A stretch of 64,000 nt of DNA from Lacibacter luteus (GTDB lineage: Bacteria; Bacteroidota; Bacteroidia; Chitinophagales; Chitinophagaceae), in NCBI RefSeq assembly GCF_004118265.1, contig NZ_SDHW01000001.1, positions 1,488,001 through 1,552,000 on the forward strand. Reading direction: 5' to 3'. The position numbers were made by a program, and so were the translations under genes. Below, piece after piece: positions 129 through 11,951 of the stretch. Under the pieces are notes generated by a model. That model saw nothing but the letters and a program-made list of their open reading frames with translations. It did no database searches and had not been told where the DNA came from. The number at the start of each line of letters is the position of its first letter. Positions within the stretch are counted from its first letter, which is position 1.

Positions 129-938
129 TTATTTAACCGTCACTAATTCATTAAATACAGAGCCTGTTTTGTTTGCTGCATACCAATCAAACTGTTCGTG
201 CAGTTTCACTACATCACCAATAATTACCAGCGATGGTGAACTGAATTGTACAGCTGCAAAATCGCTCTTCACATTTGTAAGTGTTGAAACATGCACACGT
301 TGATGTTCTGTTGTAGCCTGCTCAATAACTGCTAATGCTGTATGTGGTTTCTTTGTGTGACGAAGAAACAACTCAGCCAAACCTTCGAGATTACGTGCAG
401 CCATGTAAAACACCAGTGTATCGGATGACGATGCCCATGCTTTCCATTGCTCACGTGTATAAAAACTGCAGGGATTAAACGTGATGAACTGCACTGCTTT
501 TGCATAACCTCTTGCAGTAAGCGGAATGCCTGCATAAGCCGACGCTCCGGATGCAGCCGTAATACCGGGAATAATTTCAAACGGAATATTTGCTTCGCTC
601 AAACTTTGCAACTCATCGAGCACATTGCTGAAGAAAGCAACATCACCACCTTTTAAACGCAAAACTGTTTTTCCGTTTTGTGCATGACCAACGAGCAGTT
701 TATTAATATCTTCCTGTGCAACCGAACCATCGTGATAACCTTGTTTACCTGTCATGAGCACCAATGCATCAGGACGTGCATACAGATCGGTTATCTCCGG
801 ATTTACCAACCGATCAACAAAAATTACATCTGCTTCTGCTAAACGCTTTTGCAGTTTGATGGTAATAAGCTCAGCATCGCCGGGACCGGCCCCTGCGATG
901 ATCACTTTACCTGGTGTTTGATTGCGTTCGTTTGACAT
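129..938 (-). CDS. cobA: Uroporphyrinogen-III C-methyltransferase (SUMT)
   Basis: A 269-residue SAM-dependent tetrapyrrole methylase that makes precorrin-2, the precursor of the sirohaem needed by sulfite reductase. Family motifs are the N-terminal glycine loop GAGPGDAELIT, the segment GKQGYHDGS, the LKGGDVAFFSN substrate loop, and GITAASGASAYAGIPLTARG. The start is placed at 936-938 rather than ten codons upstream because a good ribosome site (AAGGAG) lies just before this ATG and the protein then begins at the usual place. It sits between cysN and cysJ, which fits a role in sirohaem supply rather than in cobalamin synthesis. A dyad at 957-973, shared with cysD, lies in its leader, and a terminator-like hairpin overlaps the preceding cysN stop, so this gene and cysJ may be expressed at a different level from cysN. 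Confidence 0.92.
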   Translation of the reverse strand: MSNERNQTPGKVIIAGAGPGDAELITIKLQKRLAEADVIFVDRLVNPEITDLYARPDALVLMTGKQGYHDGSVAQEDINKLLVGHAQNGKTVLRLKGGDVAFFSNVLDELQSLSEANIPFEIIPGITAASGASAYAGIPLTARGYAKAVQFITFNPCSFYTREQWKAWASSSDTLVFYMAARNLEGLAELFLRHTKKPHTALAVIEQATTEHQRVHVSTLTNVKSDFAAVQFSSPSLVIIGDVVKLHEQFDWYAANKTGSVFNELVTVK

Positions 939-956
939 ATTTCTTCTCCTTATTAT

Positions 957-973
957 CCTACTCTGCAAGTAGG
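957..973 (-). promoter_or_regulatory. Dyad shared with cysD, upstream of cobA
   Basis: On the reverse strand CCTACT, five bases, AGTAGG forms a 6-bp-arm dyad that ends 18 bases before the cobA ATG and just before the AAGGAG ribosome site. The same 17-base element, with the same arms and similar flanks, precedes cysD at 3259-3275. It could be a DNA operator or an RNA hairpin close to the start codon. No TAnnTTTG promoter box was found between it and cysN. Confidence 0.6.
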
Positions 974-985
974 GTTTAGTTGCAT

Positions 986-1006
986 AAAAAAACCTTTCGG
1001 TTTTTT
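986..1006 (-). terminator. Terminator-like hairpin overlapping the cysN stop
   Basis: On the reverse strand AAAAAACC, loop GAAA, GGTTTTTT gives an 8-bp stem with a GNRA tetraloop followed by U-rich sequence. It overlaps the last bases of cysN. The stem has only two G-C pairs, so partial read-through into cobA and cysJ is likely. Confidence 0.6.
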
Positions 1007-2246
1007 ATTTTATTAAAACAGCAGCTACTGTGCTGTTGCTTGTTTCGTCAATCAATACAGCACTTCCGTTTTCGCTGAGTTTATCGTACGAATCGAAAAC
1101 CAATGGTGATGCAGTTTTAATCACTGCTTTCACCACTTCGTTCAGCTTTACGTTTCCTTCAACAGGTTGTTGCTGTAAACTGTTTACATCGAGCTTGTAC
1201 TCCACCTGCTTAACAACAGAACGCACTAAACGGCTGCCATGCTGTAAGTAATATTTATTTCCGGGAATCAATGCTTTATCGTCCATCCAGCAAAGGATCA
1301 CATCCAGCTCATTGCTTACCTGCGGAAGATTATCCGATTTTACAATAGAATCGCCACGGCTGATGTCGATATCATCTGCCAATTGAATGGTTACGCTTTG
1401 CGGAGCAAATACTTCATCAACTGATTTACCGGCTGCTTCCAATGTGCTGATAGTTGTTTCAATACCCGCAGGCAGCACGGTTACTTTATCGCCTACTTTA
1501 TAGGTACCGCTTGTTACAGTTCCTGCATAACCACGATAGTCGTGCAGATCTTCTGTTTGCGGACGAATAACGAGTTGCACCTGGAAACGTGGATCAGTTA
1601 AATTGATGTCATGATCAATTTCTACTGTTTCCAAAAACTCCAGCAATGGTTTGCCTTCGTACCAGGTAATTGTTTCTGACTTATCTACAATGTTATCGCC
1701 ATTCAATGCACTGATGGGGATATAGGTTACATCGTTCAAACCTAATTGCTTTGCTACCTCGTTGTATTCAATGAGAATGTTGTTGTACACATCCTGCGAA
1801 TATTCAACAAGGTCCATTTTGTTTACAGCAACAACCACGTGCTTTATCTTCAGCAAGGAAGCAATGATAGAGTGGCGACGTGTTTGTTCAACAACACCTT
1901 GTCTTGCATCAATTAAAATAATGATGAGGTTGGCGTTGCTTGCACCTGTGATCATATTTCTTGTGTACTGCACATGACCGGGCGCATCGGCAATAATAAA
2001 CTTACGTTTTGGTGTGGTGAAATAACGGTAAGCCACATCAATGGTAATACCTTGCTCACGCTCTGCACGCAAACCATCTGTTAACAACGCAAGATCAACA
2101 GAACCATCAGCTCTGTTCTTGGTTGATTTTTCCAACGCCTCCAGCTGATCGATGAGAATATTTTTGCTATCGTACAGCAAGCGACCAATGAGGGTACTCT
2201 TACCATCATCTACACTGCCTGCTGTTATGAAACGTAATAAATCCAT
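1005..2246 (-). CDS. cysN: Sulfate adenylyltransferase subunit 1 (GTPase)
   Basis: The 413-residue GTPase subunit of ATP sulfurylase uses GTP hydrolysis to drive formation of adenosine 5'-phosphosulfate (APS) by CysD. The elongation-factor-like G domain shows the P-loop GSVDDGKSTLIGRLLYD, the switch region GITIDVAYRYF, the G3 motif DAPGHVQYTRNM and the G4 motif NKMD. Beta-barrel domains 2 and 3 follow. The protein ends without an APS-kinase (CysC) extension, which fits the APS-type reductase encoded next door. It follows cysD with an 89-base gap that holds a palindromic repeat. Confidence 0.95.
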   Translation of the reverse strand: MDLLRFITAGSVDDGKSTLIGRLLYDSKNILIDQLEALEKSTKNRADGSVDLALLTDGLRAEREQGITIDVAYRYFTTPKRKFIIADAPGHVQYTRNMITGASNANLIIILIDARQGVVEQTRRHSIIASLLKIKHVVVAVNKMDLVEYSQDVYNNILIEYNEVAKQLGLNDVTYIPISALNGDNIVDKSETITWYEGKPLLEFLETVEIDHDINLTDPRFQVQLVIRPQTEDLHDYRGYAGTVTSGTYKVGDKVTVLPAGIETTISTLEAAGKSVDEVFAPQSVTIQLADDIDISRGDSIVKSDNLPQVSNELDVILCWMDDKALIPGNKYYLQHGSRLVRSVVKQVEYKLDVNSLQQQPVEGNVKLNEVVKAVIKTASPLVFDSYDKLSENGSAVLIDETSNSTVAAVLIK

Positions 2247-2261
2247 TTTATCTAAATAAGT

Positions 2262-2335
2262 TTAAAATCAAAAATTGTGAATGGCCAATAGTGAATTGTG
2301 AATAAGCAATAATCATTGACTATTCACCATTCACC
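2262..2335. repeat. Imperfect palindrome built from the word GTGAAT
   Basis: The gap between cysD and cysN contains GTGAATGGCCAATAGTGAAT on the left and its near inverted copy on the right (ACTATTCACCATTCAC). Similar word-based sequence recurs at 30521-30550. It carries no gene and could fold into a long weak hairpin in the cysDN message. Confidence 0.6.
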
Positions 2336-3244
2336 TTAGAAATATCCGTTCTTCTTTCTGTCTTCCATTGCTGCTTCAGTTACCTTATCATCAATACGTG
2401 TTTCACCACGTTCGCTGATGCGTGTTGCAATGATTTCTTCAATTACTTCATCTAAGTTGGTAGCACTTGATTCAACCGCTGCAGTACAGGTCATATCACC
2501 AACGGTACGGTAGCGAACACGTTTGGTGATGATCGTATCATCTGCAGATGGTTGTACAAACTCACTCATTGCAACCAACTGTCCATCGTGTACAATCACT
2601 TCACGGTCGTGTGCGAAATAGATTGAAGGCAGATCGATCTTTTCTTTGCGGATATAATTCCAGATGTCTAATTCTGTCCAGTTGCTGATGGGGAATACAC
2701 GAACGTTTTCGCCTTTGTGTACACGGCCGTTGTAGATATTCCATAATTCAGGACGTTGCAGCTTGGGGTTCCACTGACCAAACTCATCACGTACCGAGAA
2801 GATGCGTTCTTTTGCACGGGCTTTCTCTTCATCTCTGCGGGCACCACCAATACATGCATCAAATGCAAACTCTTCAATGGTATCGAGGAGTGTATACGTT
2901 TGTAACCAGTTGCGGCTTGGGAATTTTCCTTTCGGCTCGGTTAAGCTGCGTTGCTTAATAGTATCTTCTACTTTACGAACTACCAGTGTTGCACCTACTT
3001 CGTTTGCCAGCCAGTCACGAAACTCCAATGCTTCGGGAAAGTTGTGGCCTGTATCAACATGTACTAAAGGGAAAGGAATTTTTCCGGGGGCAAATGCTTT
3101 TTTGGCAAGATGAACCATTACGATGGAATCCTTTCCACCACTGAATAAAAGGGCCGGTTTCTCAAACTGCGCCGCCACTTCACGAAAAATGTGAATGCTC
3201 TCAGCCTCTAATTGCTGTAAATAATCTAAATGATATTGACTCAT
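2336..3244 (-). CDS. cysD: Sulfate adenylyltransferase subunit 2
   Basis: The 302-residue catalytic subunit of ATP sulfurylase transfers the AMP moiety of ATP to sulfate to give APS. It has the PP-loop ATPase motif LFSGGKDSIVM near residue 35, the CIGGARRDEEKARAKERIFS segment, and the usual C-terminal region ending in RKKNGYF; the length is normal for CysD. It forms a heterodimer with CysN, encoded immediately downstream. A promoter box (TATATTTG at 3287-3294) and a dyad at 3259-3275 directly precede it, so cysDN appear able to be transcribed separately from the metY-cysH genes upstream. Confidence 0.96.
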   Translation of the reverse strand: MSQYHLDYLQQLEAESIHIFREVAAQFEKPALLFSGGKDSIVMVHLAKKAFAPGKIPFPLVHVDTGHNFPEALEFRDWLANEVGATLVVRKVEDTIKQRSLTEPKGKFPSRNWLQTYTLLDTIEEFAFDACIGGARRDEEKARAKERIFSVRDEFGQWNPKLQRPELWNIYNGRVHKGENVRVFPISNWTELDIWNYIRKEKIDLPSIYFAHDREVIVHDGQLVAMSEFVQPSADDTIITKRVRYRTVGDMTCTAAVESSATNLDEVIEEIIATRISERGETRIDDKVTEAAMEDRKKNGYF

Positions 3245-3258
3245 GATCGCTTTATTAA

Positions 3259-3275
3259 CCTACTTAGTAAGTAGG
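3259..3275 (-). promoter_or_regulatory. Dyad operator-like site at the cysD transcription start
   Basis: CCTACTTA-G-TAAGTAGG is a perfect dyad with 8-bp arms, ending 14 bases before the cysD ATG. With a TATATTTG box at 3287-3294, transcription would start near 3280, so the dyad would cover about +5 to +21, a typical repressor position. A matching element precedes cobA. The regulator is not visible in the window; the dyad size would suit a dimeric winged-helix or TetR-class repressor. Confidence 0.65.
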
Positions 3276-3286
3276 GTTTTATAATG

Positions 3287-3294
3287 CAAATATA
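3287..3294 (-). promoter_or_regulatory. Promoter -7 box of cysD
   Basis: The reverse strand reads TATATTTG, an exact match to the Bacteroidota -7 consensus TAnnTTTG. No clear TTG was found 19-21 bases upstream, so the promoter may be weak or need an activator. Confidence 0.6.
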
Positions 3295-3335
3295 ATACTC
3301 AAAGTGCCTAACACTTGTTTTTAATCAGGTTTAAT

Positions 3336-3353
3336 TACGCAAACATTTGCGCA
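3336..3353. promoter_or_regulatory. LacI-type operator-like palindrome between cysH and cysD
   Basis: TACGCAAACATTTGCGCA matches the ideal LacI/GalR-type palindrome TGCGCAAACGTTTGCGCA at 16 of 18 positions. It lies just after the cysH stop and about 40 bases upstream of the cysD -7 box. Related sites occur at 30869-30886 and 54372-54410. Regulatory function is inferred from the palindrome only. Confidence 0.4.
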
Positions 3354-3355
3354 AA

Positions 3356-4090
3356 TCAGGATTTGGTAGTTTGTTCTACATCTGTATGCACATGCAACCC
3401 GCATTCTTTGTTGCTTTTATCTTCCCACCACCAGCGGCCGGCACGGAAATCTTCGCCGGGGCGGATGGCTCTTGTACAGGGAGCGCAACCGATACTTACA
3501 AAACCTTTATCGTGTAACACGTTGTAGGGAACATGATTTTCACGGATGAACTGGTTCAGTTCTTCCCATGTCCAGTGTAATATGGGGTGAAATTTGATGA
3601 TCTGATTGCTTTCGTCCCACTCCAGCTGTGTTGTTTGCTGACGATCGGGACTTTGCTCTGCACGCAAGCCGGTAATCCAGATCTGTTTTCCTTTTAATGC
3701 ACGTTTTAACGGCTCAACTTTACGAATGCCGCAACATTGCTTACGGTTATCGGTTGATTCGTAAAATGCATTAGGTCCTTTTTCCGTAACATATTGCTGT
3801 AACGCTTCTGCATTTGGATAATAGGCATGAATAGGTTGATTGTATGCTTCCAGTGTTGAACGCCAGGTGCTGTATGTTTCGGTGAACATACGACCGGTGT
3901 CTAAGGTAAACACATCAACAGGCAACTGCTGGTTGAAGATAAGATGACTGATAGCCTGATCTTCCAAACCAAAGCTGGTTGAAAAAACGATGCTGCCTTT
4001 AAAACGTTCGCTGAGTAATTGAAGAGCCGCTGCAGGGCTTTTATCCTGCAGCAGACTTTCCAGTTCGGTTATCTGTTGTTGTAAACTCAT
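3356..4090 (-). CDS. cysH: Adenylyl-sulfate reductase, [4Fe-4S] type
   Basis: A 244-residue thioredoxin-dependent reductase that converts activated sulfate to sulfite. The N-terminal PP-loop-like nucleotide fold shows FSTSFGLEDQAI and the segment LDTGRMF. The Cys pair in QCCGIRKVEP (near residue 118) and CAPC (near residue 205) are the four ligands typical of the iron-sulfur reductases that use APS rather than PAPS; the catalytic Cys is in the C-terminal KECGLH. The absence of any APS kinase gene or fusion nearby agrees with APS as substrate. It begins two bases after the hom stop codon, so it is translationally linked to the methionine genes. Confidence 0.93.
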   Translation of the reverse strand: MSLQQQITELESLLQDKSPAAALQLLSERFKGSIVFSTSFGLEDQAISHLIFNQQLPVDVFTLDTGRMFTETYSTWRSTLEAYNQPIHAYYPNAEALQQYVTEKGPNAFYESTDNRKQCCGIRKVEPLKRALKGKQIWITGLRAEQSPDRQQTTQLEWDESNQIIKFHPILHWTWEELNQFIRENHVPYNVLHDKGFVSIGCAPCTRAIRPGEDFRAGRWWWEDKSNKECGLHVHTDVEQTTKS

Positions 4091-4092
4091 GA

Positions 4093-5355
4093 TTAATTAA
4101 TGTTTAAACCGGCCAGTTCAAGACTCTTTTTTTTCAATTTGCGGATCTCTACATCTTCAATGATCGGTTCGGGACTCAAAATTAAAGAGGTTCCGTTTTC
4201 ACGCCACCAATTGTTTTGCTTCAGTTCGTTTGCATGTACTACACCTACCAAATATTTACGATCGCTTTCAGCATGCCATTCTTCGATCCATTCCAATTTT
4301 TCTTTTGGAATAAAATCCCAGTCATCAAAGCTGAGATAAACTTTCAGGTAGTAGTCGGTTGTAAGTTCGTTTGGCTGGTGATAATACAACTTCTTGTATT
4401 CGTATTTGTAATCGTAACGCAAAGCAGAAATATCGCTCAACACAGCCGATGCTGTGGGGAACGAACCTGCTCCTTTACCATAGAAGAATTGCTTATCAGC
4501 AAATGAACTTTCTACAACAGCTCCATTGTATTCGTTCTTTACAAAACTTAAATGATCGTCGTGCTTAACAAACTGCGGCAATACAAATGCAGCCACTTTG
4601 CCATTCTGTAATTTCTTTGCCTGGCCTACCAAACGGATCTCCAGGTTCTTTTCACGGCCAACAGTTGCATCTGCACCTTGTATATTTTGAATACCGGTGA
4701 ACAACACATCTTCCACTTTCGATACCACACCATATGCATGCAGTAACAGGATCACCCATTTGTTAACCGCATCCCATCCATCCACATCCAATGTAGGATC
4801 TGCTTCTGCAAAACCTAACTGCTGTGCCTGTAACAATGCCTGTTTGAAATCGAGTTTCTCCTCAAACATTTTTGTAAGGATGTAATTGGTACTTCCGTTT
4901 ACAATACCACGAATACCGTGCAGCAAATCGTTATCGTAATACTCTTCAAGATTGCGGATAACAGGAATAGAAGCACAAGCCGAAGCTTCGTATAAAAATG
5001 AAAGACCGGTTTCTGTTTGCAACTTCAATAACTCAGGCAAATGTTCAGCAATCATTTTCTTGCTTGCACTTACTACTTCTTTACCGTTCTTCAACGCTGT
5101 TGATACAATATAAAAAGCCGGTTCGCTTTCGTTGATCACTTCCACCACTACATTGATCTCAGGATCGTTCAAAATCACATCCCTGTCTGTTGTAAACAAC
5201 TCATCGGGTGCATTACGCTTTTTGTTTGCATTCTTGATACATACTTTCTTAATGCGTGCATTCAATGATTCGGTTTGATGTAACACTTTGTATAAACCCT
5301 CACCTACAACGCCAAAGCCAAAAAGGCCAATTACTAACTGCTTATCGTTTGACAT
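4093..5355 (-). CDS. hom: Homoserine dehydrogenase
   Basis: A 420-residue NAD(P)-dependent enzyme that reduces aspartate semialdehyde to homoserine, the precursor of methionine and threonine. The Rossmann glycine motif GLFGFGVVGEGL is at the N-terminus; the catalytic domain has GSTNYILTKM and AEADPTLDVDGWDAVNKW, both characteristic of the family. It lies one base from metX and two bases from cysH, so homoserine made here can pass straight to MetX acetylation. The final 80 residues or so do not show an ACT domain that I can recognise. Confidence 0.92.
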   Translation of the reverse strand: MSNDKQLVIGLFGFGVVGEGLYKVLHQTESLNARIKKVCIKNANKKRNAPDELFTTDRDVILNDPEINVVVEVINESEPAFYIVSTALKNGKEVVSASKKMIAEHLPELLKLQTETGLSFLYEASACASIPVIRNLEEYYDNDLLHGIRGIVNGSTNYILTKMFEEKLDFKQALLQAQQLGFAEADPTLDVDGWDAVNKWVILLLHAYGVVSKVEDVLFTGIQNIQGADATVGREKNLEIRLVGQAKKLQNGKVAAFVLPQFVKHDDHLSFVKNEYNGAVVESSFADKQFFYGKGAGSFPTASAVLSDISALRYDYKYEYKKLYYHQPNELTTDYYLKVYLSFDDWDFIPKEKLEWIEEWHAESDRKYLVGVVHANELKQNNWWRENGTSLILSPEPIIEDVEIRKLKKKSLELAGLNIN

Positions 5356-5356
5356 A

Positions 5357-6409
5357 TTATTTAATTAACTGTTTCTTTAAATCTGTTTTCTGTGTTTGTT
5401 GTAAAAAGTTGTTGATGGCTTTATTGATCTGATCGTATTCCAGCAGAAATCCATCATGCCCGTAAAAAGATTCAATGCTTTTGAAAGTAGCACCGCTGAT
5501 GGTGTTTGCTAAAAACTGTTGTTCACTGATGGGGAACAGCAGATCGTTGCTGATGCCAATGACCAATGTACGGGCTGTAATTTCTTTCAACGCCAGTTCA
5601 ATAGAAGCACGGCTGCGGCCAACATTGTGCGAATCCATTCCCTTACCAAGAAAATAATAGCTGAATGCATTGTAACGTTTCACCAGTTTATCGCCCTGGT
5701 AACGTTGATACGATTCAGCTTTAAAATCTTCGAGCACATCATTTGTTTCTTCGATCTGGCTGATGCCGTATGCATCATAATGACGGTACGAAAGCAATGC
5801 AATGCTGCGAGCTGCTTTTAAACCAGCCTGCCCTGCGTCTGCACTTTTATTCTTCCAGGTAACATCGGCTTCAATAGCCAATCGTTGCGATGCATTAAAG
5901 GCAACACCCCATGCAGAGTGGTACGCATTTGTTGCAATAGGAATAATGTGTTCGAACAGTTGCGGTTCTTCAATAGCCCATTCGAGCAACTGCTGTCCAC
6001 CCATGCTGCCACCAATACCGATGTGTATTTTTTCAATACCCAATTCTTTGCGCAATGGATCGTAAGCACGAATCATATCCCTTGTAGTAAACCAGGGAAA
6101 TTCGTGATAGTAAGGTTCGTTTGTTAATGGATCTATATCCAACGGACCAATACTTCCATATGCACTGCCGGGCATGTTCACACAAACAATAAAATACTTT
6201 GCCGGATCAAATAACTTTCCTTCGCCTACCAAACCATCCCACCATTCCGATGGATCGCTGTTGGCTGTAAGTGCATGAAAGATCCATACTGCATTGCTCT
6301 TTGTTTCATTCAATTCACCAAAAGTGGTATAAGCTAAATGATATTGATTGAGCAATGCACCCGACTCCAGCCTGAATGGTTTGTTATATGTAAAAACTTT
6401 TGTTGACAT
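5357..6409 (-). CDS. metX: Homoserine O-acetyltransferase
   Basis: A 350-residue alpha/beta-hydrolase-fold acyltransferase that activates homoserine with acetyl-CoA. It shows the nucleophile elbow GIGGSMGGQQLLEW, the acid residue in GISNDLLFPISEQQ and the histidine in YGHDGFLLEY. The first third carries the conserved FHALTANSDPSEWWDGLVG segment. It follows metY with a 31-base gap and directly precedes hom, so acetylhomoserine made here feeds the MetY sulfhydrylase. It is probably on the transcript controlled by the SAM-I riboswitch at 8184-8293. A succinyl donor cannot be ruled out by eye, but the sequence is MetX-like rather than MetA-like. Confidence 0.94.
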   Translation of the reverse strand: MSTKVFTYNKPFRLESGALLNQYHLAYTTFGELNETKSNAVWIFHALTANSDPSEWWDGLVGEGKLFDPAKYFIVCVNMPGSAYGSIGPLDIDPLTNEPYYHEFPWFTTRDMIRAYDPLRKELGIEKIHIGIGGSMGGQQLLEWAIEEPQLFEHIIPIATNAYHSAWGVAFNASQRLAIEADVTWKNKSADAGQAGLKAARSIALLSYRHYDAYGISQIEETNDVLEDFKAESYQRYQGDKLVKRYNAFSYYFLGKGMDSHNVGRSRASIELALKEITARTLVIGISNDLLFPISEQQFLANTISGATFKSIESFYGHDGFLLEYDQINKAINNFLQQTQKTDLKKQLIK

Positions 6410-6440: not shown

Positions 6441-7775
<1,335 letters not shown>

Positions 7776-7821
7776 TTAAATGATGTAAAAAAATTGGACA
7801 GAAAAAAAGAAAGAAACCTAT

Positions 7822-7874
7822 GGGATACCTCCCCGTTAAGGGGTCGGAAATGATATGTATGCCTTACGGCATAC
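7822..7874 (-). promoter_or_regulatory. Hairpins after the Cys-rich leader frame, before metY
   Basis: A 7-bp stem with GTAA loop (arms 7857-7863 and 7868-7874) spans the leader stop codon. A CCCC/GGGG stem (7831-7834 with 7840-7843) and an alternative GGGA/TCCC stem (7822-7825 with 7830-7833) share bases and exclude each other. On the reverse strand they are followed by a pyrimidine-rich stretch (7790-7816). This looks like an attenuator or translation-control region, but the stems are short and no folding was computed. Confidence 0.5.
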
Positions 7875-8040
7875 AACAAATACAACAACACTGCATGCAT
7901 GCAGCAAAAGAAGAGTTTGTGTAATTGTTGTTGTACATAAATGAAGAATGCGTTACAAAAGTAACAGGCTTGTTTTGTTTATACAAATCTGAGTTTGTAA
8001 AAGTTTTGTCAATGCTGTTGTAAACAACTGTTCGTTTCAT
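7864..8040 (-). CDS. Putative leader peptide ending in a Cys-codon run
   Basis: A 58-codon reading frame lies between the riboswitch terminator and metY. It starts at the ATG at 8038-8040, the first ATG after the terminator, and ends CMQCCCICCMP: six Cys and two Met codons among the last eleven. No known domain is visible, and the composition is Asn/Thr/Tyr-rich. A ten-base segment of the frame (reverse complement of 7926-7935) is exactly complementary to the Cys-codon run (7881-7890), with the palindrome CTGCATGCATGCAG beside it, so ribosome position could change the fold. By analogy with amino-acid attenuators the peptide would sense Cys-tRNA supply ahead of the sulfhydrylase gene. Translation is not proven; a longer frame starting at 8124 would overlap the terminator and is unlikely. 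Confidence 0.5.
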   Translation of the reverse strand: MKRTVVYNSIDKTFTNSDLYKQNKPVTFVTHSSFMYNNNYTNSSFAACMQCCCICCMP

Positions 8041-8112: not shown

Positions 8113-8147
8113 AAAAAAGCTCATCCGATAAGATCAGATGAGCTTTT
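8113..8147 (-). terminator. Riboswitch-controlled intrinsic terminator
   Basis: The reverse strand reads AAAAGCTCATC, an 11-base loop, then GATGAGCTTTTTT: an 11-bp stem with a U-tract. The left arm and loop (8127-8139) can instead pair with the 3' side of the riboswitch P1 stem (8178-8190) with 12 base pairs and one bulge, forming a clear antiterminator. Ligand binding to the aptamer would therefore favour termination. Confidence 0.88.
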
Positions 8148-8183
8148 GCTATGTAAGTGAACATTGTTAAGCTTTGAATCTGA

Positions 8184-8293
8184 CTTATCTACCCACATTG
8201 CTGTGGATGGAATTGGCACCTGTTCTGTCAACTTTCGTTGAGAGAGGTTGCCAAGGCTTCATCGGGCCATTACCCTCTGCCTTTCTTGATAAG
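8184..8293 (-). ncRNA. SAM-I (S-box) riboswitch aptamer
   Basis: The reverse strand carries the canonical S-box blocks in order: CTTATCAAGA (P1 5' side), GGCAGAGGG, GGCCCGATGAAGCC, TTGGCAACC, GGTGCCAATTCC, and the closing GATAAG (P1 3' side). These are the conserved kink-turn, J1/2, P3 and SAM-binding elements. It lies on the transcript leading to metY, metX and hom, which is the expected target set, and is followed by a competing terminator. High SAM should shut the operon off by early termination. Confidence 0.96.
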
Positions 8294-8296
8294 TAG

Positions 8297-8330: not shown

Positions 8331-8363
8331 CAAAAGTAGGCAGAAAAAGAGGTATCTGCCAAA
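8331..8363 (-). promoter_or_regulatory. Promoter of the metY-metX-hom-cysH transcript
   Basis: The reverse strand has TTTG (8360-8363), a 21-base spacer, and TACTTTTG (8331-8338), matching the Bacteroidota TTTG...TAnnTTTG promoter. Transcription would start near 8324, about 30 bases upstream of the SAM-I aptamer. Confidence 0.75.
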
Positions 8364-8382: not shown

Positions 8383-8841
8383 TTAAAGCACAGGGTTTGC
8401 TTCACGTACCAGAATCAATGCAGCTAATACTGATGGAATCATTGCACGCAGGTGAGCTTTGCGTTCTGTTTCTGTACTGTAAACGGGTTTAATACTTGCC
8501 CGCAGCTGACGATCGGGAACAGCTTCATTTTCCAGCACCACTTCAATGCCATCACCTTCTTCAATACGAAAACGGAACTGATCGTGTTGTTCAGTTGTTG
8601 CCGAACCTTTGATCATTTGTTCATCATCGTACTGAATTTTTCCGAGGTTGTGTCCATATTCATTCCGTACAAACTGGAACAACTTATTAAACATGCGTTT
8701 GCCAATGAAAATACTTCTTCTTATCATACCGCTTTCCAAACGAAAACTTTCCGTAGCCGGACTCAGTTTTACTGTAAAACGATGCTCATCTCTGCCATCG
8801 TTAAAAATCATTGGAACCTCGTTGTAAACTGCTATGCCCAT
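8383..8841 (-). CDS. Conserved-type hypothetical protein, 152 aa
   Basis: I do not recognise this 152-residue protein. It has no signal peptide or membrane segment and looks cytosolic and beta-rich, with the segments RRSIFIGKRMFNKLFQF and RFRIEEGDGIEVVLENE. The C-terminus is hydrophobic and probably helical (SVLAALILVREANPVL). The stop lies about 20 bases upstream of the metY promoter and no clear terminator separates them. A -7-like box TACGTTTG (8900-8907) lies upstream and would give a leader of about 50 bases. It is divergent from uvrA. No function is proposed. Confidence 0.7.
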   Translation of the reverse strand: MGIAVYNEVPMIFNDGRDEHRFTVKLSPATESFRLESGMIRRSIFIGKRMFNKLFQFVRNEYGHNLGKIQYDDEQMIKGSATTEQHDQFRFRIEEGDGIEVVLENEAVPDRQLRASIKPVYSTETERKAHLRAMIPSVLAALILVREANPVL

Positions 8842-9116: not shown

Positions 9117-11951
9117 ATGAGTGAAGAAATGCATGAGTACATCGATGTTTCAGGGGCAAGGGTACATAACCTGAAAAATATTGATGTACAGATACCCAAA
9201 AACAAACTGGTGGTTATTACCGGTATCAGCGGCAGCGGTAAATCATCGCTGGCATTTGATACTATTTATGCTGAAGGGCAACGTCGTTACATGGAAACCT
9301 TTGGTGCCTATGCCCGCCAGTTTGTAGGCGATATGGAGCGCCCCGATGTTGATAAGATCACCGGCCTTTCTCCTGTTATTTCCATTGAACAAAAAACCAC
9401 CAATAAAAACCCACGTTCAACAGTTGGTACCATTACCGAAGTGTACGATTTTCTGCGTTTGTTGTTTGCACGTGCAAGCGAAGCGTATTCGTACAACACC
9501 GGAAAAAAAATGGTGAAGTGGAGCGAAGAAGAAATTGTTGAGAATATTTACAATCGTTTCGATGGACAAAAAGTTTCGTTACTGGCGCCGTTGGTAAGAG
9601 GCCGTAAAGGCCATTACCGTGAACTGTTTGAAGACATCCGTAAGAAAGGTTTTGTAAAAGTGCGTGTTGATGGAGAGATTGTTGATCTTACTCCAAAGAT
9701 GCAGGTTGACCGTTATAAGATCCACGATATTGAAGTAGTAGTTGATCGTTTAAAAGTGAGTGATGATTTTCGTGTGCGCATCAGCCAGAGTGTACAACAA
9801 ACATTAAGGCTTGGAAAAGATCTGATGTTCATCGATACTGAAAAGAATGGCCTTGTGTCTTACTCCAAACAATTAATGTGTGAAGACACAGGACTTAGTT
9901 ATGAAGAACCATCACCCAATGCGTTTTCCTTTAACTCACCTTATGGTGCATGCCCTACCTGTAAAGGTTTGGGCAATGTGTACACTATCGAAATGGAATC
10001 CATCATTCCCGATGGAAAACTCACTGTTAAAGAAGGCGGTATTGCTCCGCTTGGTGGCGAGCGTGATGCAAGTGTGTACCAACAGGTGACTGCGTTTGCA
10101 AAGAAATACAAGATCAAATTAGATGTGCCTGTTGAAAAACTTTCAAAAGAACATCTTGACCTGTTATTATATGGCGATAAGAATATTAATCCTTCACTTG
10201 AAATTGATGTAAATGATGACACAGTACCGCAGGAATACACCGGCAGTTACGAAGGAATTATTCCGATGCTCAAACGCTGGTTTTCTTCGACACACAGTAC
10301 CGAGAATCTGCGTGAATGGGTTGCCGGATTTACCACATTAAAAACATGCAGCAGTTGTAACGGTGCACGTTTACGCAAGGAAAGTCTTTGGTTTAAAATT
10401 AACGACCGCAATATTGCTGAACTGAGCGAACAAAACCTCGACAATCTTGCTGCATGGTTCGATGGTTTGGAATTGCGCATCAGCAACAAACAGGCAACCA
10501 TTGCAAAAGATGTATTGAAAGAGATAAGAGAGCGTTTGCAGTTTTTGTTAGATGTTGGCTTAACCTATCTCACCTTAAACCGCTCCAGCCGAACATTGAG
10601 CGGAGGTGAAAGTCAGCGTATACGTTTGGCAACACAGATCGGTTCGCAACTGCAGGGCATCACATATATTTTAGATGAACCAAGTATTGGTTTGCATCAA
10701 CGAGATAATCATCGGTTGATTGAAGCGTTGAAAAATCTGCGTGATGTAGGCAACAGTGTATTGGTAGTAGAACACGATAAAGATATTATGCTTGCTGCCG
10801 ATCACTTGATTGATGTTGGGCCGCAGGCAGGAAAACATGGTGGTCAGATTGTATCGGCAGGAACACCGAACGATGTTTTGCAATCGAAAAGTGAAACAGC
10901 ACAATACCTGAATGGCGGTAAAACAATTGCTGTTCCGAAAGAGCGTCGTAAAGGCAATGGAAAGTTTATTGAACTGAAAGGCGCAAACGGCAACAACCTG
11001 AATAACGTAAGCACCAAATTTCCTTTGGGTAAACTGATCGTTGTTACAGGCGTAAGCGGCAGCGGCAAGAGCACACTCATTAATGAAACGCTCTACCCTA
11101 TCCTCAGTAAATATTGTTACGATTCAAAAACCAATCCCATGCCTTACAAAAGCATTAAAGGATTGGAGCATATTGATAAAGTGATTGAGATTGATCAATC
11201 GCCCATTGGACGTACACCTAGAAGCAACCCTGCAACCTATTGCGGTTTCTTTACTGAGATAAGAACATTGTTTGCTGCAGTACCCGAAGCAAAGATCAGA
11301 GGTTACAATGCAGGGCGTTTTTCGTTCAACGTAAAAACAGGCCGTTGCGATGTTTGCGAAGGTGGTGGTATGCGTGTGATTGAAATGAATTTTCTGCCCG
11401 ATGTTTATGTGCATTGCGAAAAGTGTAATGGCAAACGTTACAACCGGGAAACATTAGAGATCCGTTACAAAGGAAAATCGATTGCTGATGTGTTGGATAT
11501 GACGGTGGAAGAAGCAGTTGAGTTTTTCCAGGCAGTTCCTTATCTCTACAGAAAAATTAAAGTGCTGGAAGATGTCGGGCTCGGTTACATAACACTCGGG
11601 CAAAGTGCTGTTACCTTAAGCGGTGGTGAAGCACAGCGTGTAAAATTATCAACTGAGCTTGCGAAGAAAGATACCGGTAAAACATTTTATATTCTTGATG
11701 AACCAACAACCGGTTTGCATTTCCAGGACATTCAGCATTTGCTTGAAGTGTTGAATAAATTAACAGACAGAGGTAATAGTGTTTTGGTAATTGAACACAA
11801 CATGGATGTAATTAAAGTGGCAGACCACATTATCGATCTTGGCCCGGAAGGTGGTGATGGTGGCGGACAGATTTTATTCGAAGGCACGCCTGAAGAACTT
11901 ATCAACTGCAAACAAAGTCACACCGGTCGTTTCCTTAAAACCGAATTATAA
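9117..11951 (+). CDS. uvrA: Excinuclease ABC subunit A
   Basis: The 944-residue DNA-damage recognition ATPase of nucleotide excision repair. Two ABC modules are present: Walker [10 protein letters not shown] near residue 36 and GVSGSGKST near residue 645, with signatures [12 protein letters not shown] and [12 protein letters not shown] and Walker [10 protein letters not shown] and LDEPTTGLH. Zinc-binding cysteines appear in [25 protein letters not shown] and [14 protein letters not shown]. Length is normal for the family. The leader (8842-9116) holds no other gene; TAACTTTA near 9052 is a possible but imperfect -7 box. It is convergent with the barrel-protein gene at 12474. Confidence 0.98.

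Follow-up and report, generated by a model that had tools for sequence, protein, structure and literature searches.

A putative cysteine-responsive leader peptide ahead of the metY operon in Lacibacter luteus and its association with SAM-I riboswitches in Bacteroidia

Introduction

In Lacibacter luteus, a small open reading frame that ends in a run of cysteine codons lies between a SAM-I riboswitch and metY, the first gene of a presumed operon. This arrangement raises the question of whether the run senses cysteine, how such a signal would reach metY, and how it would be combined with the SAM signal read by the riboswitch. A first-pass annotation of the window (the whole stretch of 64,000 nucleotides analyzed here) proposed a ribosome-stalling cysteine sensor placed in series with SAM-I on a single transcript. 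Comparison with related loci indicates that the element is very probably a cysteine-responsive leader-peptide attenuator of the metY-metX-hom-cysH-cysD-cysN-cobA operon for sulfate assimilation and homocysteine. Cysteine-codon attenuators are described in Actinobacteria only, among the literature matches listed. A spread over many Bacteroidia families would mean that such a device had also arisen or persisted in a second phylum, and would give a hint of how these bacteria control sulfur assimilation. The parts are of known kinds, while their combination and the phylum are new as far as the literature searched shows.

The metY locus of the window

All features of the window described here lie on the minus strand unless stated otherwise. 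metY (6441-7763) encodes O-acetylhomoserine sulfhydrylase and matches TIGR01326 with 690.4 bits, where the cut-off is 495.1. NCBIfam matches and open reading frames place the remaining presumed operon at 129-6409, comprising metX, homoserine dehydrogenase, cysH, cysD, cysN and uroporphyrinogen-III methyltransferase; the match that identifies metX is strong (E 5e-99), yet below its curated cut-off. The end products of this pathway are presumably cysteine and SAM, which would fit the function of the operon.

The SAM-I aptamer at 8182-8295 (Rfam RF00162, 80.2 bits against a gathering score of 44.4) is the sole one found in the genome. It is preceded by a promoter-like pair, P1, at 8331-8363, which consists of TTTG (8363-8360), 21 nt and TACTTTTG (8338-8331), and it is followed at about 8113-8144 by a terminator-like hairpin with a U run (AGCTCATC..GATGAGCTTTTTTG). 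A terminator scan finds a terminator 240-420 nt before metY in 11 of the 13 loci of the genus, pointing to a transcriptional expression platform behind the aptamer in these loci. Upstream of the SAM-I promoter is a gene for a 152-aa protein (8383-8841, minus strand) without an NCBIfam match, and the gene that follows at 9117-11951 on the plus strand is presumably uvrA-like.

The leader frame has 58 codons (7864-8040), ends with CMQCCCICCMP before a stop about 100 nt ahead of metY, and continues open upstream as far as an ATG at 8124. A shorter version of 24 codons, MYNNNYTNSSFAACMQCCCICCMP (7864-7938), is supported by the genus alignment and by pN/pS. Its cysteine codons form the run TGT TGT TGT ATT TGT TGT at 7873-7890. 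The segment UACAACAACA at 7926-7935 pairs with these codons in both the consensus fold and the fold of the window RNA; on the plus strand, TACAACAACA (7881-7890) and TGTTGTTGTA (7926-7935) are exact complements. The 14-base palindrome CTGCATGCATGCAG is present at 7891-7904, and within the genus it takes the form CTGCA-NNNN-TGCAG, all five pairs being kept in 10 of 12 loci. The frame ahead of metY, its Cys-rich end, the coordinates, the complementarities and the palindrome are thus as the first-pass annotation had described them.

Cysteine leaders before metY in Bacteroidia

Four sets of metY loci were compared. The genus set comprises 14 genomes, 13 of which have a near full-length metY match; the named set holds the best 80 named metY loci among the matches listed; the family set covers 80 of 128 metY loci from the rest of the family; and the class set takes 40 of 42 loci from other families, the two left out being the weakest matches. 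A Cys leader was defined as an ORF that begins with ATG, stops 60-240 nt before metY and carries at least four Cys in eight residues within its last 14. By this rule leaders occur at 12/13 genus, 38/80 named and 18/40 class loci; for these three sets the reverse strand has none, and dinucleotide shuffles yield no more than 0.05 per set. With identical upstream stretches reduced to one, the counts become 12/13 (genus), 35/77 (named), 27/67 (family) and 18/39 (class), or 92 of 196 distinct Bacteroidia metY loci, against 1 on the reverse strand and a shuffle mean of 0.0. When all 20 amino acids are scanned over the 196 loci, the runner-up to Cys is Leu with 7 (reverse strand 6, shuffles 4.0). The codon run is therefore selected, and it is selected for cysteine; codons for an end product are clustered in the short ORF before the operon, and the cluster is specific to Cys. 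On these comparisons the predicted leader is more than a chance observation and is conserved by selection. Alignment of the metY upstream regions of relatives, which the first-pass annotation had pointed to as one way to judge its proposal, finds the Cys run kept in 12 of the 13 genus loci and beyond; L020 is the one metY locus of the genus without it.

The rule detects no leader at the other 104 of the 196 loci. Among the loci that it misses are L150, which has three Cys, and L156, in which the Cys run falls short of the very end. L172 (ending HCCIKP) and L190 (ending VCCMP) carry minimal two-Cys leaders that escape the count as well, and L174 and L222 have the promoter-like box of the leader but no Cys ORF, which gives the impression of a lost leader. 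The number and spacing of the Cys residues vary, and the remainder of the peptide is unlike between families. The exact pattern CCCxCCMP occurs 15 times among 294 family genomes, distributed over 14 of them; 13 occurrences stand before metY and two elsewhere (L037, L051).

Two possible starts for the same cysteine codons

Between the two versions of the leader, the short one shows some signs of a coding sequence. Its pN/pS, taken over 7 relatives of equal length, is 0.46 in frame vs 0.98 and 0.58 in the other frames, consistent with some protein selection. Upstream of the short ATG, pN/pS of the long frame is 0.86, vs 0.67 and 0.70 in the other frames, so protein selection is not seen on this part. 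At a single locus an open frame of the length of the long leader is not rare, occurring in 0.05-0.32 of shuffles. Across the 12 genus loci, the other two frames contain stops in 11 and 12.

A second promoter-like pair, P2, lies inside the long frame at 7956-7987. It is made of TTTG (7987-7984), 20 nt and TACTTTTG (7963-7956), and it is followed by a predicted RNA start at about 7951. In the genus alignment the TA and TTTG of its second box are invariant in 12/12 loci, variation being confined to the nn letters, and the upstream TTTG lies at 20 nt in 10/12. In Flavobacterium, the reported sigma-A consensus is TAnnTTTG at -12 to -5 (PMC9723704). With the genus, named and family sets taken together, a TAnnTTT(G/A) box with an in-frame ATG 2-46 nt further on accompanies 56 of 74 leaders, compared with 4.0 in shuffles; T(T/G)G at the -33 spacing is found in 37 of these 56, a raw count without a shuffle baseline. 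Among the 12 named leaders whose family is another one or unclear, 11 lack the box. By comparison, then, the leader of Chitinophagaceae has a conserved promoter-like pair of its own. The distance from the predicted RNA start to the ATG is 13 nt in 14 of the 56 boxed leaders, the window included, and 3-6 nt in 12.

Since P2 lies inside the 58-codon frame, a second transcript from about 7951 would escape the SAM-I switch and encode the 24-codon leader, and a leader of this kind that bypasses SAM-I is likely. As the sole leader, the 58-codon frame is weakened by this internal promoter-like pair and by the pN/pS of 0.86, but it is still retained because all 12 genus loci keep it open and 11 of them place its ATG 34 codons ahead of the short ATG. 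Both starts may be used, by transcripts of two promoters. A transcript from P1 would have to pass the SAM-I terminator first and could then translate the 58-codon frame; a transcript from P2 would start beyond the switch and translate the 24-codon frame, and the two would share the same Cys codons. The proposal of one transcript that integrates SAM and cysteine in series is not supported for the window in this form, given the second transcript predicted from P2. The idea is better realised in families in which SAM-I abuts the start codon of the leader.

A conserved hairpin at the end of the leader

The leader of the window ends in a hairpin, H1 (7857-7874), GUAUGCC-GUAA-GGCAUAC, whose tetraloop contains the stop codon; it is identified by conservation and by the consensus and window folds. 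In Chitinophagaceae generally, the Cys codons run into UAUGCC-loop-GGCAUA, with the general form UAUGCC-GNAA-GGCAUA. The motif TGCC..GGCA occurs near the stop in 56 of 87 leaders, counting leaders with four or three Cys and excluding the class set, and the loop of these 56 is GTAA in 31 and GCAA in 11 (together 42/56), both of which we take to be GNRA tetraloops. Setting aside 12 leaders of another or unclear family and three doubtful ones leaves 72, and 47 of these form all six H1 pairs; the corresponding figure is 5/72 for sequence taken 40 nt further downstream and 7.2 of 72 after shuffling. For five of six pairs the separation is weaker (64/72 vs 34/72 downstream and 46.2 in shuffles). Compensatory forms are seen in TATGTC/GACATA (L090), GTATGT/ACATAC (L093) and TATGGC/GCCATA (L211). 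The end of the ORF shifts between MP, MPQGI and CRKA while the RNA hairpin persists; in 4 of the 56 leaders H1 is read in the alternative frame, giving CRKA and not MP, so it is the RNA that is kept and not the peptide. What comparison across loci thus shows is a predicted short ORF, shortly ahead of metY, whose last codons form a Cys run and whose end is overlapped by a conserved hairpin.

A covariance model of the Cys run and the hairpin, searched in 117 family genomes with stricter filters for 40 of them, has matches in 20, one in each, of which 17 lie directly before metY. In the genome of the window the match is unique (E 2.9e-7; next 1.6). Because the model was made from metY leaders, its matches show where the element is located and do not imply an independent discovery. 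The three matches that are not before metY are in G089, on a short contig apart from the metY piece, in G054 and in G097; those at G054:C60:10429-10468 (E 0.021) and G097:C1:1939280-1939321 (E 0.049), away from metY, are among the three weakest of the model.

Possible routes from cysteine supply to metY expression

In the proposed attenuator, a scarcity of Cys-tRNA would cause the ribosome to stall on the Cys codons. The stall would either allow the RNA around the stop to refold or hold the ribosome between Rho and RNA polymerase, and transcription would proceed into metY. With ample cysteine, the ribosome would reach the stop and leave, and transcription would end in the C-rich spacer, most likely by Rho.

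The RNA at the end of the leader is structured. The predicted transcript from 7951 to 7765 folds at z = -3.25 (200 shuffles), and the consensus fold of the genus contains three stems, namely an N-run paired with the Cys run, H1 and a post-stop stem. The last of these, CC..CCCC/GGGG..GG at 7828-7847, includes the stem 7831-7843 of the first-pass annotation and has two pairs that are changed on both sides in the genus, with a small total covariation term (-0.26). The first-pass annotation had this stem (CCCC/GGGG) and another at 7822-7833 (GGGA/TCCC) exclude one another. In the window the two are indeed mutually exclusive because they share bases, and the first is part of the genus fold; the second is present in 2/12 genus loci, the window included, and it was rejected as a conserved switch. 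What stands of the ribosome-stalling cysteine sensor is the conserved Cys-codon leader with structured RNA at its end, whereas the exclusive pair of stems is not conserved and terminators before metY occur at chance level. Long-range pairing of the 5' end of the leader RNA with a segment past H1, seemingly covarying, was convincing by eye but was rejected after a permutation test, in which the mean was -8.6 kcal/mol for own and -8.8 kcal/mol for swapped partners, own partners were better in 15/37, and 12426 of 20000 permutations were as good.

Between the leader stop and metY, an intrinsic terminator is found at 0/12 genus loci with the stricter setting and at 2/12 with the looser one, where 1.35 are expected; over all leaders the count is 5/92 vs 3.4 expected, although the same scan recovers the SAM-I terminator at 11/13 loci. 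Allowing longer loops gives 4/92 vs 4.4 at threshold 16 and 1/92 vs 0.2 at threshold 18. As a general mechanism the intrinsic terminator was rejected, as these counts do not rise above chance. The spacer between the post-stop hairpin and metY (7764-7827) is C-rich and G-poor and is a candidate Rho loading region. Spacers have a C content of 0.24 and a G content of 0.10-0.15; C minus G per 90 nt before metY is 11.1 with a leader and 7.0 without one; ahead of 19 other genes in the window it is about 1 per 100 nt. The C-richness that would serve Rho is thus partly present even where the leader is lacking. Rho is favored because an intrinsic terminator is not seen and the spacer is C-rich and G-poor, and, judged from base composition alone, it most likely ends transcription in the spacer.

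A different outcome of the stall is possible, if unlikely: the stalled ribosome could alter folding so that metY is translated, with transcription running on regardless. The chance-level terminator counts fit such translational attenuation, as do mycobacterial polycysteine leaders described as regulating downstream translation (PMC9031893). However, the start of metY lies about 100 nt past the leader in a region that is A/U-rich and unstructured in the genus consensus fold, so nothing obvious hides it.

Classical attenuation, in which the scan would have missed an intrinsic terminator and the switch would consist of the stems 7831-7843 and 7822-7833, is improbable for the window. The two stems do exclude each other there, a U-rich stretch comes next, and the looser setting returns the 2/12 genus loci mentioned above; yet the second stem is limited to 2/12 genus loci, and the stricter setting that returns none before metY is set against recovery of the SAM-I terminator in 11/13. 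In the genus of the window, no terminator with a competing antiterminator is found between leader and gene at the stricter setting, and the element may work like an attenuator without being of the classical intrinsic-terminator type. One other family does have terminators: in L150, L152 and L156, a strong hairpin with a U run, read by eye and in L152 also found by the scan, stands between the Cys-run ORF and metY, and the classical form of attenuation is likely in that family. In L152 a competing GAGAAAGCCCC segment lies ahead of the terminator. Leaders of the Cytophagales type have a conserved CAGCAACA after the stop that is able to pair with the Cys codons; its consensus fold over 7 sequences has changes on both sides in 6 of 27 pairs. 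In L109, L110, L111, L116, L119, L123 and L131, CAGCAACA is followed by a conserved hairpin around GTGAC.

It is very improbable that the small Cys-rich protein itself does the work, for instance by binding metal or in redox chemistry, with codon sensing absent. Its Cys-rich end is conserved across families and a copper-responsive upstream ORF has been reported elsewhere (PMC9426467), but the number and spacing of Cys vary, the rest of the peptide differs between families, and the element is tied to metY (17 of 20 genome matches). The end of the ORF moves while H1 stays, and a small protein acting in trans is unlikely because the frame through the hairpin changes while the hairpin is retained. 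That chance Cys codons in an AT-rich spacer were kept by recent common descent only has a negligible probability: sequences of one genus are closely related, but leaders with different peptides stand at 18 of 40 class loci from other families, and reverse strand and shuffles yield 0-1.

The proposed cysteine-responsive attenuator has its closest known counterparts in Actinobacteria. Predictions for Mycobacterium, Propionibacterium and Bifidobacterium include leader ORFs with Cys runs but lacking conserved terminators, together with a weak case for Rho (PMC1262725); one polycysteine leader ORF is visible in ribosome profiles (PMC4633059), and PMC9031893 and PMC9094748 credit Canestrari 2020 with reporting a cysteine response in M. 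smegmatis. As described, these polycysteine short ORFs (Seliverstov 2005; Shell 2015; Canestrari 2020) likewise carry the Cys run near the stop, ahead of cysteine genes, and likewise have no conserved terminator, Rho being suggested with reserve. The predicted RNA start 3-6 nt before the ATG in the 12 of 56 boxed leaders noted above, in some Chitinophagaceae, may be a further likeness, to the leaderless sORFs of mycobacteria. The leader described here differs in its phylum, in its target (the metY operon), in the hairpin across its end and in the SAM-I that precedes or abuts it. Attenuators of the trp type likewise encode a leader peptide in which the regulated amino acid is concentrated towards the end, and L150, L152 and L156 share with them a terminator before the first gene; unlike them, the window has no intrinsic terminator between leader and metY. 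For Bacteroidota, the matching texts mention leader-peptide attenuation in general terms for F. psychrophilum (PMC9723704) and report sORFs of B. thetaiotaomicron that are unvalidated (PMC7366714). No cysteine leader before metY in Bacteroidota was found among the literature matches listed, which covered few subscription papers; this agrees with the statement of the first-pass annotation that no such case was known to it.

SAM-I and the leader as separable or possibly composite sensors

In Chitinophagaceae the riboswitch and the leader occur independently of each other. SAM-I calls made by regular expression were redone with Rfam for 60 of the 67 distinct family loci, within 700 nt upstream, and SAM-I is present in 33 of the 60. 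The 27 loci with a Cys leader divide into 11 with SAM-I and 16 without, while 22 of the 33 loci that lack the leader have SAM-I. From these counts, SAM-I and the Cys leader are modules. In family loci with both, the end of SAM-I is at least 96 nt before the first in-frame ATG of the leader. In the window, the ATG of the 58-codon frame lies about 140 nt past the aptamer and the in-frame ATG at 8124 lies 57 nt past it, inside the terminator; the aptamer P1 is not beside the start codon of a small ORF there.

A different layout is found in other families. An Rfam scan of 40 loci outside Chitinophagaceae, picked mostly for a leader already noticed, finds SAM-I in 34. In all 31 loci with both elements (30 distinct genomes, L112 and L134 being one contig as judged by length and match), the 3' end of the aptamer lies 1-15 nt before the leader ATG. 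The ATG was taken as the first in frame after the aptamer, a rule that favors short distances, and the family loci give at least 96 nt under the same rule. The P1 strand at the end of the aptamer reads TATAAA in 22 of the 31. Examples of the abutting arrangement are L108-L112, L116, L118, L119, L122, L123, L126 and L131 and, among the class loci, L132, L137, L151, L154, L157 and L158. SAM-I stands without a Cys leader in L139, L141 and L153; no SAM-I match was obtained in L143, L146, L150, L152, L155 and L156, although the rule does assign a leader to L152 and L155. In each of four genomes with the abutting layout, the metY SAM-I sits directly against a Cys leader (4/4). The same genomes contain 8 SAM-I aptamers before other genes, none of which has the start of a Cys-run ORF within 60 nt and none of which ends in TATAAA.

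With 1-15 nt to the ATG there is little room, and the abutting aptamer could therefore hardly act except on translation of the leader. Outside Chitinophagaceae it probably gates the translation of a cysteine-sensing leader. In the simplest reading of these loci, SAM would block translation of the leader and cysteine would permit its full run, and either would end transcription. The balance of evidence tips, by a modest degree, towards a composite RNA in several Bacteroidia families, in which the P1 of SAM-I covers the ribosome-binding stretch of the leader and the whole forms a NOR gate on SAM and cysteine, the two sensors being separated in Chitinophagaceae, the window included. In such an RNA, the level of SAM would set whether the leader is translated and the level of cysteine whether the ribosome stalls, and the operon would be transcribed only when both are low. 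In Chitinophagaceae the sensors would have come apart, with a terminator belonging to SAM-I and a separate promoter belonging to the leader. If true, nature would here provide an RNA device with two inputs, the riboswitch controlling whether a leader that senses an amino acid is read.

Several described systems share features with the composite arrangement. SAM-I riboswitches in which the 3' strand of P1 contains the ribosome-binding site are described as a case of direct translation attenuation (PMC2258182), and the placement of the metY aptamers outside Chitinophagaceae fits this description; the start codon served, however, is that of the Cys leader and not that of a biosynthetic gene. In M. 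tuberculosis, riboswitches act with an upstream ORF in the cases of B12 (metE, ppe2) and Mbox (pe20) (PMC11260477, PMC12810186). Here too a switch and a small ORF work together, and the Mbox is described as controlling the small ORF, with Rho ending transcription. The abstracts give these ORFs no amino-acid-sensor role, and the ORF of Bacteroidia differs in its Cys run, through which a second metabolite would be read. Another example is Pelagibacter, with SAM-II and SAM-V in one spacer before bhmt and SAM-V before metY (PMC2704228); this is likewise a case of two sensors in one spacer, but both read SAM, and the available parts of the report do not mention a leader peptide. A SAM-I aptamer abutting a cysteine leader was not found among the literature matches listed.

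Some loci of the abutting kind differ in distance or number of elements. In L134/L112 (-612), L148 (-459) and L149 (-545), the Cys leader that abuts SAM-I lies 459-612 nt before metY, and a second SAM-I (L108:555-666) is located about 1.4 kb upstream of the SAM-I before metY in L108.
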